Both the position numbers and the translations under genes were made by a program. A stretch of 20,090 bases of DNA from a virus: positions 1 through 20,090 of IMG/VR virus record IMGVR_UViG_3300013120_000386; one strand, written 5' to 3'. The notes beneath the pieces were generated by a model. The model did not search any database, was not told where the DNA came from, and worked only from the letters and a program-made list of their open reading frames with translations. Below, piece by piece: positions 5,947-17,982 of the stretch (positions are counted from its first letter, which is position 1; the number at the start of each line of letters is the position of its first letter).

Positions 5947-6859
5947 TGGCTGGTTTTCCCTTCGGCTCAAAAAGTCCGGTCCAGTTGTTTTCAATCGAAT
6001 TGTCGAAGATCGCGCCAAGATCGTGGCCTGCGTCTCGCCATTTGCGGAGTTTGCCGAGCATCAACTTCACGGCATCATCGGTGGGCCACTTGCGCATTGC
6101 TTTGCGCATTTTGAGAAAGGCATTCCACTTGTCGGCGGGCACCCAATTAGGGATTTCCGGCCAATGGCTATCGCGCGTATATTGTTTGTCGTTAGACAAA
6201 CATAGGTTCCTAGAAGGTTCCGTGTCCCGTTTTTGGGACTGTCTCGGGGAAATTTCGGGACTGTTCGACCGTGCCGCTTTCGGTACTGTCTTGCGAGTGT
6301 CCCGTTTTTGGGACTCTTTAGCTATGTTCTTGCAAAGCGGCTCTTTCATCCCCTCCGCGATGGCCTCCGCCTCCGCTCGTTCCGCCTCGGTCCTGCTCTT
6401 AAAAGTGCCCAAGATGTCCTTGCGGAGTGGGTTGCCGCGAAACTTTGCGCCAGTCGGCCACTTGCCTGATCCCTTGTAGCCGTCGCTTGCAGGGTCGCCG
6501 ATGAAGCTGCGCACCCCAATGTAAAACTCGCCGGTCACGTCATCGGTCAGGCGATAGGTGTAGTGCGTTTCATTTACGCCCCGCCCAACTGTCTCAATGG
6601 CCAAAGAATAGGCCTTAATTTGCTTGCTTTTGCCGACCCTCTGGCCACTATCAGCGATAAGCCCAGCAGCCTCCAAGCGCTGCAATGACGCGATCACCGT
6701 CTTGCGGTTGAGGTCGCTGAACTCGCAAAGCCAAGCGATAGAAGGATAGGCGATATTGCTGTCTTCGTTGTGCCTATCGGCCAACGCGATAAGGATCAGC
6801 TTGTCCGACGCGCGGCCTGGACGCTGCTTGCTTGCCCATGCGAGTGCTTGCCAGCTCAT
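5873..6859 (-). CDS. Winged-HTH replication initiator with inserted GIY-YIG-like domain
   Basis: Encodes 328 residues from ATG 6859, which overlaps the stop of the HNH gene (ATGA); earlier in-frame Met is less likely. Residues 1-90 are a winged helix-turn-helix (SDKLILIALADRHN, then SIAWLCEFSDLNRKTVIASLQRL) as in phage replication initiators. Residues 98-178 (THYTYRLTD, TGEFYIGVRS, YKGSGKWP, KDILGTFKSRTEAERAEAEAI) resemble small GIY-YIG-like domains found in phage proteins. Residues 180-230 are a basic linker in which SQKRDT occurs twice. Residues 232-300 (IPNWVPADKWNAFLKMRK, WTGLFEP) match the C-terminal domain of HTH replication proteins, which binds partners. The linker DNA has iteron-like repeats. 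I infer origin binding. Confidence 0.8.
   Translation of the reverse strand: MSWQALAWASKQRPGRASDKLILIALADRHNEDSNIAYPSIAWLCEFSDLNRKTVIASLQRLEAAGLIADSGQRVGKSKQIKAYSLAIETVGRGVNETHYTYRLTDDVTGEFYIGVRSFIGDPASDGYKGSGKWPTGAKFRGNPLRKDILGTFKSRTEAERAEAEAIAEGMKEPLCKNIAKESQKRDTRKTVPKAARSNSPEISPRQSQKRDTEPSRNLCLSNDKQYTRDSHWPEIPNWVPADKWNAFLKMRKAMRKWPTDDAVKLMLGKLRKWRDAGHDLGAIFDNSIENNWTGLFEPKGKPANDYRNSKPTGTANAAQRAIASLGG
6183..6202. repeat. Perfect 8-bp inverted repeat inside the replication gene
   Basis: TGTTTGTC (6183-6190), four bases GTTA, then GACAAACA (6195-6202). It lies 20 bases to the left of the iteron-like repeats and in AT-richer DNA than the surroundings. It could be part of an origin or an initiator site. 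Confidence 0.6.
6221..6315. repeat. Iteron-like repeats within the replication initiator gene (candidate origin)
   Basis: Four related copies of a TTTCGGGACTGTCT-like unit occur with GGGACT or GGTACT at 6235, 6257, 6282 and 6310, spaced 22-28 bases. The two outer copies share an exact 19-bp repeat (GTGTCCCGTTTTTGGGACT at 6221-6239 plus one base, and again at 6297-6315), each with its own GTCCC/GGGAC dyad. This is the arrangement known from lambda, where origin iterons lie in the middle of the O gene. The repeats also produce repeated SQKRDT in the protein, so selection on protein sequence is an alternative explanation. Confidence 0.5.
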
Positions 6860-8242: not shown

Positions 8243-8548
8243 TTACGCCTCCACCGGCTTGCGGTTCATGAGGTCGATGACTTCGCGGTCGAACTCGTCT
8301 GCCTTGGGGGGGGTGACCTTGCGGAAGCGGGAGGCTGTCCAGCCCATCCCTCGATGTTCGTAAGTAGCAGGAACACCCTCAATGAAGAGAGTAAGGCCGC
8401 TGCACGTTCCTACGCGGCCCAATCCCGCTACGGTGTATACACGCCCCTTTTTGATGCGGTTCAAATTCAGTATTTGTTCGCCGTTAAGCCACGGTTTGAG
8501 ACCGTCATCCACACACAGCGCCAGATCGCCTTTCTGCCAATCGGTCAT
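8243..8548 (-). CDS. Unknown phage protein (101 aa), beta-rich
   Basis: ATG 8548 forms an ATGA overlap with the gene upstream. The sequence alternates hydrophobic strands (GDLALCV, KGRVYTVAGLG, LTLFIEGV), followed by a FRKVTPP end. Small beta-barrel proteins of this form (GDxALCV then GxxYTV) are frequent in phage early regions, but their function is not known to me. No catalytic residues are seen. Confidence 0.6.
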   Translation of the reverse strand: MTDWQKGDLALCVDDGLKPWLNGEQILNLNRIKKGRVYTVAGLGRVGTCSGLTLFIEGVPATYEHRGMGWTASRFRKVTPPKADEFDREVIDLMNRKPVEA

Positions 8549-8991
8549 GCTACGGCCCTCACTTTGCTCAGGAGTGCGTCCAGATCGTCGCGGGCCTGCT
8601 CAAAAAGCTGGCGGCTCTCGCGGATCTCGGCTGCGGTAATCTCACCATCGGCAAGCGACTGGCTAAGGCTGGTGGCTGCCGAGAGAACGTTGGTTAGGGC
8701 GCTGTGGTCGCACTGGCTGCCGGGGCGGCTGTCAACGCAAAGGCGCTCAAAGTATCCGGTGAAGCGCCCGTTCCATTCGCGCTTCCCGCGACCGTAGGTG
8801 ACGAAATCCATGTAGGCGCTGCCATCGGCATACTTGGCGACCTGATCCTCGCTCTTGCCGAGGACGACGCCTATTTCCGCCCAAGTCAAAGAATCCTCTG
8901 ACTTGATCTCTAGGATGGCGCGACCGATCGCGGCAGCCGCCGCAGAAGCGGAATACACGCTCCGTTTGCCGTGGATTAGCGGGGCGCTCAT
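8545..8991 (-). CDS. Putative HTH regulatory protein of the leftward operon
   Basis: Encodes 148 residues. Residues 15-60 look like a helix-turn-helix (AAAAAIGRAILEI, then LTWAEIGVVLGKSEDQVAKYADGSA), which could bind DNA as phage CII-like or other early regulators do. Residues 61-85 contain RGKREWNGRFTGYFERLC. The C-terminal 60 residues form a long helix (SLADGEITAAEIRESRQLFEQARDDLDALLSKV), likely for dimerisation. It lies two genes after the Cro-like gene, where lambda-like phages have CII, but it has no sequence match to CII that I can see. ATG 8991 overlaps the stop of the membrane peptide gene. Confidence 0.6.
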   Translation of the reverse strand: MSAPLIHGKRSVYSASAAAAAIGRAILEIKSEDSLTWAEIGVVLGKSEDQVAKYADGSAYMDFVTYGRGKREWNGRFTGYFERLCVDSRPGSQCDHSALTNVLSAATSLSQSLADGEITAAEIRESRQLFEQARDDLDALLSKVRAVA

Positions 8992-9146
8992 TGGTTATCT
9001 CCAGTGTTATGAGAAAGGGAAACAACATCGGTGCGAGTAGAGCCGTCGAGGTGGCGGCTCCGCACATCTGCGAGGTAAAGATCGCGCATCACGAAAAGGC
9101 CGAAGAACACGGCCCACATGACAGCGCAGACAAGCGCGAGGATCAT
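8988..9146 (-). CDS. Single-pass membrane peptide (52 aa)
   Basis: The N-terminal 20 residues (MILALVCAVMWAVFFGLFVM) form one clear hydrophobic helix, followed by a charged tail with RDLYLADVRSRHL. ATG 9146 has GGAGG 6-8 bases upstream on the minus strand. The stop overlaps the start of the next gene (ATGA). Its place at the head of the leftward operon suggests early expression in the inner membrane, perhaps exclusion or host takeover, but this is an inference. Confidence 0.65.
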   Translation of the reverse strand: MILALVCAVMWAVFFGLFVMRDLYLADVRSRHLDGSTRTDVVSLSHNTGDNQ

Positions 9147-9160
9147 GCTGCGCCTCCGAA

Positions 9161-9202
9161 ATTGTATATTTTCGCCAATGGCTTATCCCGTTGTGGGACA
9201 AG
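9161..9202. promoter_or_regulatory. Imperfect palindrome and possible -10 upstream of the membrane-peptide gene
   Basis: CTTATCCC (9182-9189) and GGGACAAG (9195-9202) form an inverted repeat with 7 of 8 matches. To its left TACAAT reads on the minus strand at 9166-9161, a good -10 box, but no good -35 is seen. The stretch 9147-9298 has no codon-position bias and looks non-coding. Confidence 0.3.
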
Positions 9203-9239
9203 TGTTTTTGCTGAGATTGACCGGGCTCGATCCGGCATG

Positions 9240-9274
9240 TTGACTGATGTTCCAAAAGAGAACATGGAGAGAAC
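9240..9274 (+). promoter_or_regulatory. LexA (SOS) box over a rightward promoter
   Basis: GAAC at 9260-9263, seven bases, then GAAC at 9271-9274. GAAC-N7-GAAC (GTTC-N7-GTTC on the other strand) is the established alphaproteobacterial LexA operator. A TTGACT hexamer at 9240-9245 would be a -35 box; the -10 is weak (CATGGA at 9263-9268 with a 17-base gap) and lies within the operator, so bound LexA would block it. An additional ATGTTC at 9248-9253 makes an inverted repeat with GAACAT at 9260-9265. Confidence 0.6.
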
Positions 9275-9298
9275 ATGCACCGCAAAGGAATGCTCGTT

Positions 9299-9487
9299 AT
9301 GTCCGAGGGACCGCCGACCTTTTGCGAGGAACGCGGCCTGTTTATCCTGTCCATCCCATGTGGCGGGCGCGACTTGCGCTTCGGGTTCCTGCCGCACGAC
9401 TTCCTGCAAGCGGTCGAGGAAAGCCGCGCAATCTCCGAAGAGTTTTTCGAGAGACGCGGCGCGGTCCCGTTCAGGCGAACCGGCTAG
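9299..9487 (+). CDS. Small LexA-box gene; candidate antirepressor (62 aa)
   Basis: ATG 9299 has AAAGGA at 9284-9289, 9 bases upstream; in-frame ATGs at 9275 and 9290 are possible. About 79% of third codon positions are G or C, higher than first positions, as expected for a real gene in a GC-rich genome. The protein has a beta-like start (GLFILSIPCGGRDLRFGFLP) and a helix (DFLQAVEESRAISEEFF). No known family is recognised. The gene follows a LexA box and runs toward the Cro/repressor switch. The adjacent repressor lacks a self-cleavage domain, so an SOS-controlled antirepressor, as in phage 186 and Gifsy-type prophages, would complete the switch. An antisense frame at 9143-9490 competes for this DNA. 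Confidence 0.55.
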   Translation: MSEGPPTFCEERGLFILSIPCGGRDLRFGFLPHDFLQAVEESRAISEEFFERRGAVPFRRTG

Positions 9488-9489
9488 CA

Positions 9490-9687
9490 TCACGCTGCGC
9501 GGTCCTGCGCGACACCGGACATGAGTTCGTCAGCGCCCGCCGCGCCTTCGCTTACTAGAAGCAGCCAGCAATCAACCGGAATGCGCTTGCGCTGCTTCCA
9601 GGAGCGGATGGTATGAATGGACTTGCCGGTCAGCTCGGCCAAAGGCTCGACCCCTACGGCTTCGATGATTTCGGTGTGACTACGCAT
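9490..9687 (-). CDS. Cro-like HTH regulator
   Basis: Encodes 65 residues from ATG 9687 (70 from ATG 9702). It has a helix-turn-helix of Cro/YdaS type (TEIIEAVGVEPLAELTG, then SIHTIRSWKQRKRIP). It is divergent from the repressor gene at 9760, as cro is from cI in lambda. The predicted leftward promoter has its -10 box at 9699-9694, downstream of the 9702 ATG, so only ATG 9687 fits; it would lie at or within a base or two of the transcription start, giving a leaderless mRNA. It would bind the same operators and favour lytic growth. Confidence 0.7.
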   Translation of the reverse strand: MRSHTEIIEAVGVEPLAELTGKSIHTIRSWKQRKRIPVDCWLLLVSEGAAGADELMSGVAQDRAA

Positions 9688-9700
9688 AACGGTGTTATGC
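9684..9700. promoter_or_regulatory. Operator half-sites: perfect 7-bp inverted repeat
   Basis: GCATAAC (9684-9690), GGT, then GTTATGC (9694-9700) form a perfect inverted repeat overlapping the -10 box and start of the Cro-like gene. GTTATGC is also part of the 19-bp operator at 9694-9712, which recurs at 10109-10127. It is a likely binding site for the repressor or Cro. Confidence 0.6.
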
Positions 9701-9722
9701 ATTATGCGTTACCGGAATGCAA
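9694..9722 (-). promoter_or_regulatory. Leftward promoter for the Cro-like operon with shared operator
   Basis: On the minus strand TTGCAT (9722-9717), a 17-base gap, then CATAAC (9699-9694). The 19-bp stretch GTAACGCATAATGCATAAC covers the spacer end and -10 box. The same 19 bases with one change lie in the promoter at 10099, so both are probably closed by one regulator. Confidence 0.6.
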
Positions 9723-9738
9723 GCGCCTTTTGCGTAAT
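9709..9738 (+). promoter_or_regulatory. Possible repressor maintenance promoter, rightward
   Basis: TTACCG (9709-9714) and CGTAAT (9733-9738) are separated by 18 bases, about 20 bases before the repressor ATG at 9760. The -35 box overlaps the end of the 19-bp operator, so repressor binding could adjust its own synthesis as in lambda PRM. The match to consensus is moderate. Confidence 0.4.
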
Positions 9739-9759
9739 TCTTTCAATTATTCTCAAGGC

Positions 9760-10086
9760 ATGGACACGCCAGCAGACAGATTGCGCCACGCCCGAGTGCG
9801 GGCAGGGTATAATACGGGCAAGGAAGCAGCCGAGGCGCTAGGCTTTCCCGTCTCCACATACCTAGGCCACGAGAACGGCAGTCGAGGCTTTCCTGCCAAG
9901 AAAGCAGCTATTTACGCCCGCCGCTATAAGGTGGCGGAGGAATGGCTCTTGTATGGCAAAGGTGATGCTCCTGGAGAGACGGACGATCCCAAGGCTGAGG
10001 TGGTGCGACTCTTCCGCCAACTGCCGCCGATCAAAAAGGCAGAGGCCATCGGATACCTGCGCGGACTGGCAGAAGTGCAAAAATAA
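9760..10086 (+). CDS. Phage repressor, XRE/HTH type without peptidase domain
   Basis: Encodes 108 residues from ATG 9760; AAGG lies only 2-3 bases upstream, so translation may be weak. Residues 5-60 form an XRE-type helix-turn-helix (ADRLRHARVRAGYNTGKEAAEALG, then VSTYLGHENGSRGFPAKKAAIYARRY), followed by VAEEWLLYGKG, common in alphaproteobacterial CI-like proteins. The rest is a short helix (EVVRLFRQLPPIKKAEAIGYLRGL). Lambda-like repressors of about 200-240 residues have an S24 domain with Ser/Lys for self-cleavage; it is absent here. It is divergent from the Cro-like gene and surrounded by GCATAA operators. I infer that it maintains lysogeny and needs another route for induction. Confidence 0.75.
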   Translation: MDTPADRLRHARVRAGYNTGKEAAEALGFPVSTYLGHENGSRGFPAKKAAIYARRYKVAEEWLLYGKGDAPGETDDPKAEVVRLFRQLPPIKKAEAIGYLRGLAEVQK

Positions 10087-10098
10087 TGCAATTTGCGT

Positions 10099-10127
10099 TT
10101 GACAAGGGGTAACGCATAAAGCATAAC
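10099..10127 (+). promoter_or_regulatory. Rightward early promoter with shared operator
   Basis: TTGACA (10099-10104), 17 bases, CATAAC (10122-10127). The 19-bp stretch GTAACGCATAAAGCATAAC (10109-10127) differs by a single base from the operator in the leftward promoter at 9694-9712. It would drive the RecT-like, HTH and SSB genes and be silenced by the repressor. AAAGGAG before ATG 10151 provides the ribosome binding site. Confidence 0.7.
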
Positions 10128-16790: not shown

Positions 16791-17746
16791 GTGAGACGAC
16801 CAAGCCCTCTTGGACTATCGAAGAAGCTTGCGATGCTTGGTTTCACGCCAAGGGGCAGCACCAGAAGTCACACGCTGCCAACCTCTACCAGCTCGGGCAG
16901 CTTATCAGGCTCTTGGGCGGACCGAAGCCCCTGCACGACCTCACAGTTCGCGACCTTGACCTGTATGTCGCCAAACGGCGCGCCAAAGTGAGCAATGCCA
17001 GCGTCAACCGCGAAATAGCCCTGTTGCGGCGCGTGGTGAGGTGGGCGGCAAAGCGCAATTACGAAACGCCGACAATCGACTGGCCCGAGGTGATGCTGCC
17101 GGAAGAGAGCGAGCGTGTCCGAGAGTTGACCGCAGAAGAAGAGGATCGGCTTTTCGCTGCGCTCCCCGACAACCTGAAGCCCATCGTGGAGTTCGCCCTG
17201 CTATCAGGGCAGCGGCGCACAGAAATCATATCCCTGCGCTGGTCGGACGTGAACCTAGCCGAAGCGCGGGCGTCGTTTTCGATCAAGGGCGGGGACAAGC
17301 ACAGCATTCCCCTATCGCCCCGCATGGTGGCACTGATCGCCAACCAGCCCAAGGTCTGCCCGCAGGTGTTCACCTACGTGTGCCGGCGACCCGCACCGAA
17401 GCGCAAGGATCGACCGCAGCGGGTGAAGGGGGAGCGCTACCCGTTTAGCAAGCAGGGTTGGGCGCGCCAGTGGCGCAAGGCGCTCAAAGAAGCGGGGATC
17501 GAGAACTACCGCTTTCACGACAACCGCCACACCGCCGCGACTCGCAATCTGCGCGCATCGGGCAACATGAAGGGTGTGCAGAAGCTGCTGGGCCACAAGG
17601 ATCTACGGACCACAGGCCGCTATGCTCATGCGATGGAAGATGACGTGCGGGCGATGCTGTTTGCAACCGAGTCCCGAAATAGTCCCGAACCGCAAGACAA
17701 TGACTTGCCGCAAACCCGCAGAAATGCTAGGAGTGGCGATGCCTAA
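16646..17746 (+). CDS. int: Tyrosine-type site-specific integrase
   Basis: Encodes 366 residues. Residues 55-140 are the core-binding helical domain; the catalytic part has Arg190 (SGQRRTEI), Lys218 (GGDKHSIPL), His291-x-x-Arg294 (FHDNRHTAA), His317 (LLGHKD) and the nucleophile Tyr326 (TGRYAHA). The full catalytic set R-K-H-R-H-Y is present. The enzyme cuts and rejoins attP and attB; its attP is likely the tRNA-Pro-derived site at 17750-17794. The C-terminal 35 residues are polar; the DNA encoding them carries the left copy of an 18-bp direct repeat. Confidence 0.97.
   Translation: MSVYKPKKSRLYQYDFQFKGHRHHGSTGCTSKRDAERYEAEQRRKVALGETTKPSWTIEEACDAWFHAKGQHQKSHAANLYQLGQLIRLLGGPKPLHDLTVRDLDLYVAKRRAKVSNASVNREIALLRRVVRWAAKRNYETPTIDWPEVMLPEESERVRELTAEEEDRLFAALPDNLKPIVEFALLSGQRRTEIISLRWSDVNLAEARASFSIKGGDKHSIPLSPRMVALIANQPKVCPQVFTYVCRRPAPKRKDRPQRVKGERYPFSKQGWARQWRKALKEAGIENYRFHDNRHTAATRNLRASGNMKGVQKLLGHKDLRTTGRYAHAMEDDVRAMLFATESRNSPEPQDNDLPQTRRNARSGDA
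17671..17688. repeat. 18-bp direct repeat, left copy (candidate integrase arm site)
   Basis: GTCCCGAAATAGTCCCGA occurs here, within the integrase 3' end, and again at 17893-17910. Each copy contains two GTCCCGA units spaced 11 bases, the pattern of adjacent arm-type integrase sites. The two copies lie on the two sides of the tRNA-like core. Confidence 0.6.
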
Positions 17747-17749
17747 GCA

Positions 17750-17794
17750 CACTTTACCCAAAACAAGTGCGCTACCAGGCTGCGCCACTCCCCG
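17750..17794 (-). other. attP core with 5' half of tRNA-Pro(TGG)
   Basis: From 17794 leftward on the minus strand about 40 bases match the 5' part of a tRNA-Pro gene: CGGGGAG, a D-arm with GCGC...GGTAGCGC, ACTTG, and the loop TTTTGGGT with anticodon TGG (17760-17758). The match ends just after the anticodon loop, and the rest of the tRNA is absent. CACTT (17750-17754) and AAGTG (17765-17769) flank the loop as an inverted repeat, like integrase core sites. Integration in or near an anticodon loop is common, but most phages carry the 3' half of the tRNA. Confidence 0.65.
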
Positions 17795-17982
17795 ACCTGC
17801 GGAAGCCCTTAGGTTTCGTGCGGTTCGCGGGCAAGCCCCAAAAGCCGTTCGCGGCAAGAAAGGGCGGAACGTGGCAAGAACAGGCAGCGGGTGTCCCGAA
17901 ATAGTCCCGAGGCCTGAGAGCGGGCCGAGAAGGTGCGACAACACCGACCCGGCCCTGACCATAACGAACGTAGGAGGTTCGC
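17795..17982. other. Non-coding attP flank with possible phage-borne tRNA promoter
   Basis: No gene is seen. On the minus strand TTGCCC, 17 bases and TAAGGG precede the tRNA-like start by 11 bases. That could be a promoter supplied by the phage for a rebuilt tRNA-Pro after integration. The right copy of the 18-bp direct repeat is at 17893-17910. Confidence 0.35.
17893..17910. repeat. 18-bp direct repeat, right copy (candidate integrase arm site)
   Basis: Exact second copy of GTCCCGAAATAGTCCCGA, 222 bases from the left copy and about 100 bases beyond the tRNA-like segment. Confidence 0.6.

Follow-up and report, generated by a model that had tools for sequence, protein, structure and literature searches.

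Small LexA-linked genes as candidate swappable antirepressors in phages whose repressor lacks a self-cleavage domain

Comparison of about 30 related phages suggests that small LexA-linked genes act as swappable antirepressors that wake prophages whose repressor cannot cut itself. The analysis started from the window, the complete 20,090-base IMG/VR record IMGVR_UViG_3300013120_000386, in which a small gene (9275-9487, + strand) lies directly behind a predicted LexA operator and next to the immunity genes. Placement of this gene, its co-exchange with the repressor, and precedents in other phages make it reasonably likely that its 70-residue product is an antirepressor whose expression LexA represses and which acts specifically on the non-cleavable repressor next to it.

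The closest protein match of the window integrase is from Sphingomonas parapaucimobilis, those of the SSB are encoded on alphaproteobacterial plasmids, and those of the 108-residue repressor are from Phenylobacterium and a Xanthobacteraceae MAG. From these closest matches, we infer that the window derives from a temperate phage of an alphaproteobacterial host. Behind the integrase, positions 17740-17800 (- strand) read like a partial tRNA-Pro gene, with no complete tRNA detected by ARAGORN, and this is the probable attachment site.

The switch comprises, in order, the repressor gene (9760-10086, + strand), a cro-like gene (9702-9490, - strand), the small gene (+ strand), and an early operon (- strand). 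The cro-like protein (70 residues) has only weak, HTH-type matches in Pfam and PHROGs, and its gene has a low dN/dS; it is arranged tail-to-tail with the small gene, with 2 bases between the stop codons. An operator region (GTTATGCATTATGCGTTACC...) occupies the gap between cro and the repressor (9694-9748), and an inverted, OL/OR-like second region lies behind the repressor (10073-10127), such that two inverted copies of the operator-region sequence GTTATGCNTTATGCGTTACC flank the repressor. Upstream of the small gene is a leader (9147-9274, + strand) that is common to prophages with different genes behind it. A conserved early gene outside of the switch proper (8545-8991, - strand; phrog_16695) served as the bait for collecting related phages.

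Two IMG/VR records (L005 and L004) contain relatives of the small gene at 91% nucleotide identity. Comparison of the small gene with these relatives yields a dN of 0.045 and a dS of 0.45 (dN/dS ~0.10), and its codon score and GC3 match those of the phage's own genes. The small gene is a real protein gene under purifying selection, in agreement with an earlier sequence-only reading that had described an open reading frame with strong codon bias. That reading had placed the start 25 bases beyond the LexA box, yielding 62 residues. The most likely start is an ATG at 9275, which directly abuts the box and yields 70 residues: the box contains a Shine-Dalgarno sequence (GGAGA), the relative has the same residues 1-9, and the junction recurs elsewhere (GAACN7GAAC-ATG in L050, L059, and L069). 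A minus-strand open reading frame at 9143-9490 was considered as a gene due to its TGATG overlap with cro, which looks operonic. This frame is also open in the relative and was preferred by a codon-based gene finder, but it was rejected and taken as non-coding because its dN (0.12) is close to its dS (0.14); it is a trap for gene finders.

No family match for the 70-residue protein was found in Pfam or PHROGs, even at E ≤ 1, or in NCBIfam, and it therefore falls into no known antirepressor family in these libraries; the sequence-only reading had likewise not recognised the family. An AlphaFold2 model built from five sequences comprises three strands and one long helix (pLDDT 78), and a structural search with this predicted fold returned no match at E ≤ 0.001. 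Genome contigs and 385 genomes of the class yielded no convincing relatives, the A4 search of the same genomes (run without a positive control) yielded no match, and phage and plasmid records yielded no usable match.

The predicted LexA operator (9260-9274, + strand) is a direct repeat, GAAC-N7-GAAC (GAACATGGAGAGAAC), that ends flush with the ATG of the small gene. It is kept as GAACAGGGAGGGAAC in L005, although conservation of the leader (~88% identity between the window and L005) does not single out the box. GAACN7GAAC or GTTCN7GTTC is present within 300 bases upstream of 24 of 27 lexA genes from sampled alphaproteobacterial genomes, which agrees with the Caulobacter LexA operator, GTTCN7GTTC (PMC12700426), and upholds the earlier identification of this repeat as the alphaproteobacterial LexA operator. 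The window box is positioned at a gene start, as would be expected for a member of the alphaproteobacterial LexA regulon, with the operator at the promoter or start. A possible third half-site, GTTC-N7-GAAC (9249-9263, + strand), shares the first GAAC of the operator and is kept in L005 and L050; it would extend the array, from 9249, to GTTC-N7-GAAC-N7-GAAC. A search for a sigma-70 promoter at the box found none. LexA bound at the box would cover the ribosome-binding site, and this points to an upstream promoter, with LexA probably serving as a roadblock or overlapping the start region. Collectively, the sequence evidence makes it very probable that the small gene is under LexA (SOS) control.

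The repressor next to the small gene has HTH matches only and no Peptidase_S24 in Pfam, a search that does return PF00717 for control repressors from this phage group. It thus lacks the domain that defines self-cleaving, lambda-type repressors, as had been noted from the sequence, and in this respect resembles the cognate repressors of LexA-antirepressor systems. A natural swap involving such repressors was identified in IMGVR_UViG_2811995091_000080 (G001; 83 kb), which contains two related prophages, one of them window-like. In the second prophage, leader and box (GAACAGGGAGAGAAC) are retained as far as the start codon, but the 75-residue open reading frame that follows is unrelated, and cro and the repressor differ as well, the latter again without Peptidase_S24 (S24-less). 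Window positions 8515-9278 are similar to this prophage, with the similarity stopping at the start codon. A small LexA-linked gene thus segregates with its repressor, and the swap is as expected for a cassette of cognate antirepressor and repressor. A small gene located between the leader and cro would, however, be carried along passively in any exchange of immunity as well. In both G001 prophages, a further GAACN7GAAC (32915-32929 and 77519-77533) overlaps the ATG of a gene for a small, holin-like membrane protein, which may reflect either SOS-timed lysis or chance.

Divergent relatives of the 70-residue protein (P0001-like proteins) are encoded convergently with cro at the same place in L016 and L085, and another occurs in L080. 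Shuffle z-scores are ~5 to 6 for the window-L085 and window-L016b pairs and ~3 for the window-L080 pair; by reading of the sequence, the L016 protein (130 residues) comprises two copies. When relatives of the L085 protein were sought in an independent scan, only the L085 protein itself was recovered. No GAACN7GAAC was found upstream of the genes in L016, L085, and L080, and one-mismatch boxes were absent or at chance level. The genes adjoin S24-less repressors in the window, L016, and L085, although the L080 repressor contains Peptidase_S24. The earlier proposal of a candidate antirepressor is supported by the joint segregation of small gene, box, and repressor C-terminus, which makes it the best-supported reading, and weakened in that the distant homologs have no box.

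The same observations bear on a different role, in which the gene is LexA-controlled but its product leaves the repressor alone and serves, with SOS timing, in host takeover or lysogenic conversion (as a cell-division, recombination, or toxin-like protein). In favour of this role, accessory genes are common among LexA-controlled phage genes, no domain is recognisable in the 70-residue protein, and P0001-like genes can lack a box and in one case adjoin an S24 repressor. However, the gene lies inside the immunity region, next to S24-less repressors in three phages, and was exchanged together with cro and the repressor, and we consider an accessory role unlikely.

The window contains three GAACN7GAAC sites where 0.53 are expected. 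By itself the motif is therefore not rare, and since the excess is only suggestive, the motif was tested across the phage group and the class. The other two sites, 6206-6220 (- strand) and 17867-17881 (+ strand), are compatible with chance; one is intragenic and one lies between the integrase and 17983. The group comprised 44 loci that encode the neighbouring early gene (phrog_16695), with repressors typed by Pfam. GAACN7GAAC was present in the switch region of 7 of 11 S24-less phages versus 2 of 16 phages with an S24 repressor (p = 0.011 in a Fisher test, or p = 0.026 when L050, which has the leader of the window, is left out; the phages are related and both values are without phylogenetic correction). 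S24-less switches contained seven sites versus 0.58 expected. Other spacings and control words were mostly at background, with 3 of 11 each for spacing 6 and the word AACG, and spacing 7 was the strongest. No box was present in the region examined of the S24-less phages L064, L073, L082, L085, and L016. Both L071 and L077, which are S24-bearing, contain a box and related open reading frames of 60-83 residues (GKP..PWR..KE...DEWG.FY) that are tail-to-tail with the repressor, ~210 bases past its stop; these are possibly a third SOS-linked small family.

Most boxes in the group precede a gene for a 95- to 105-residue protein with a PxC-x3-C-x2-C-x3-C motif (Cys-type), which runs tail-to-tail into an S24-less repressor. 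Members were identified in L053, L059, L063, L069, L088, L125, L127-L130, L132, L133, L135, and L137. A re-scan with three members as queries recovered 14 loci, of which nine remained after removal of known and duplicate loci. A perfect GAACN7GAAC was located just before the Cys-type gene in all nine of these newly fetched loci, compared to a background in which 8 of 891 predicted genes carry a box at their start. Eight of the nine repressors have no S24 in Pfam, and the ninth (L130) closely resembles that of L129. The family is absent from PHROGs, Pfam, NCBIfam, and the phage and plasmid records searched. Cys-type genes overlap the 3' end of the repressor in antisense by 200-230 nt. In four pairs, third-position change is depressed in both frames within the overlap, and outside of the overlap change in each gene is concentrated in third positions. 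From this pattern, both overlapping genes are probably real.

This arrangement is informative with regard to whether the transcript rather than the peptide matters in the window, with a LexA-repressed promoter that corresponds in position to lambda PRE and whose transcript crosses cro in antisense and enters the repressor gene, thereby tuning cro or re-establishing the repressor after damage. The small gene does point through cro towards the same-strand repressor, with no + strand terminator-like site found between 9487 and 9760. However, the peptide is under purifying selection, and the Cys-type LexA gene runs antisense into its repressor, so that the topology is not conserved whereas the box is; a primary role for the transcript thus appears improbable. 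It is similarly doubtful that the box is a coincidence of ribosome-binding site and start context (GAAC...GGAGAGAAC-ATG) and the gene is not SOS-controlled, as one might suppose from the chance expectation per window and the unremarkable conservation of the box within the leader, given that boxes are enriched at S24-less switches, most strongly with spacing 7, and that every new Cys-type locus has one, against so few among predicted genes.

For the antirepressor reading, the repressor C-terminus is the likely point of contact. Repressors of the window, L016, L017, L069, and L088 have 52-75% in common in the HTH part and differ in their C-termini. No partner was found for the S24-type C-terminus (L017, by reading), the window/L016 type is paired with P0001-like proteins, and the L069/L088 type is paired with the Cys protein, where C-terminal similarity could partly reflect the overlapping gene. 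L017, L019, and L020 have an HTH similar to that of the window repressor in longer proteins, and those of L017 and L020 read as S24-type by eye. L085 encodes a P0001-like protein but has an L050-type C-terminus, indicating that the pairing is not one-to-one. We tentatively propose, as a generalisation about which we are less confident than about the window protein itself, that prophage induction in temperate phages of alphaproteobacteria is a plug-in function: one HTH is combined with varied C-termini, and each S24-less type (window, L050, Cys-type) would have its own unrelated, SOS-controlled small antirepressor, with the Cys-type gene placed antisense within the C-terminal coding sequence of the repressor and both frames selected.

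In the proposed mechanism, host LexA would bind at 9260-9274 in the lysogen and silence the 70-residue gene, while the 108-residue repressor, unable to cleave itself, would hold the lytic promoters via the two inverted flanking operator regions. Upon DNA damage, RecA would promote LexA self-cleavage and the 70-residue gene would be expressed. Its product may then bind and inactivate the cognate repressor, most likely via the C-terminal part, which would allow transcription of cro and the early operon.

LexA-controlled antirepressors have precedents in Gifsy, 186, and N15 (PMC3121763), and the LexA-antirepressor scheme as such, exemplified by 186 Tum and Gifsy GfoA, is already known. As with GfoA, GfhA, and GftA of Gifsy (Lemire et al., 2011; PMC3121763), the window combines a small LexA-controlled protein with a non-cleavable repressor, and prophages of one family have different immunity genes. 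In contrast, the Gifsy genes are outside of the immunity region, after a dinI homolog, whereas the window gene is inside of it and tail-to-tail with cro, its start codon directly follows the box, and its product has no family match. Phage 186 Tum is LexA-controlled and binds its cognate repressor, a property that the window protein may have by analogy. Tum is 146 residues with a DinI-like half (PMC3121763), whereas the window protein is 70 residues long, with neither a DinI domain nor any other detected. TF-smORF modules (Silpe et al., 2023; PMC10432266) also rely on small orphan proteins, each inactivating its own cognate cI specifically and non-proteolytically, as the window protein might, but they are SOS-independent and activated by a divergent transcription factor, whereas a LexA box precedes the window gene. 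Self-cleavage of lambda and P22 CI has the same outcome, SOS induction, which the window repressor would reach without Peptidase_S24. Based on the open-access literature searched, three features appear new: the protein families, the location of the gene inside the immunity region with its start codon directly behind the operator, and the Cys-type relative that overlaps its repressor in antisense.

If correct, this would mean that outside of the enterics, phages with non-cleavable repressors are routinely woken through small proteins under LexA control, and that such proteins come from families absent in the public libraries searched. It provides a search rule, GAACN7GAAC flush with a small open reading frame at the immunity region, that would allow direct prediction of DNA-damage-inducible prophages and would supply matched repressor/antirepressor pairs for tests of specificity.
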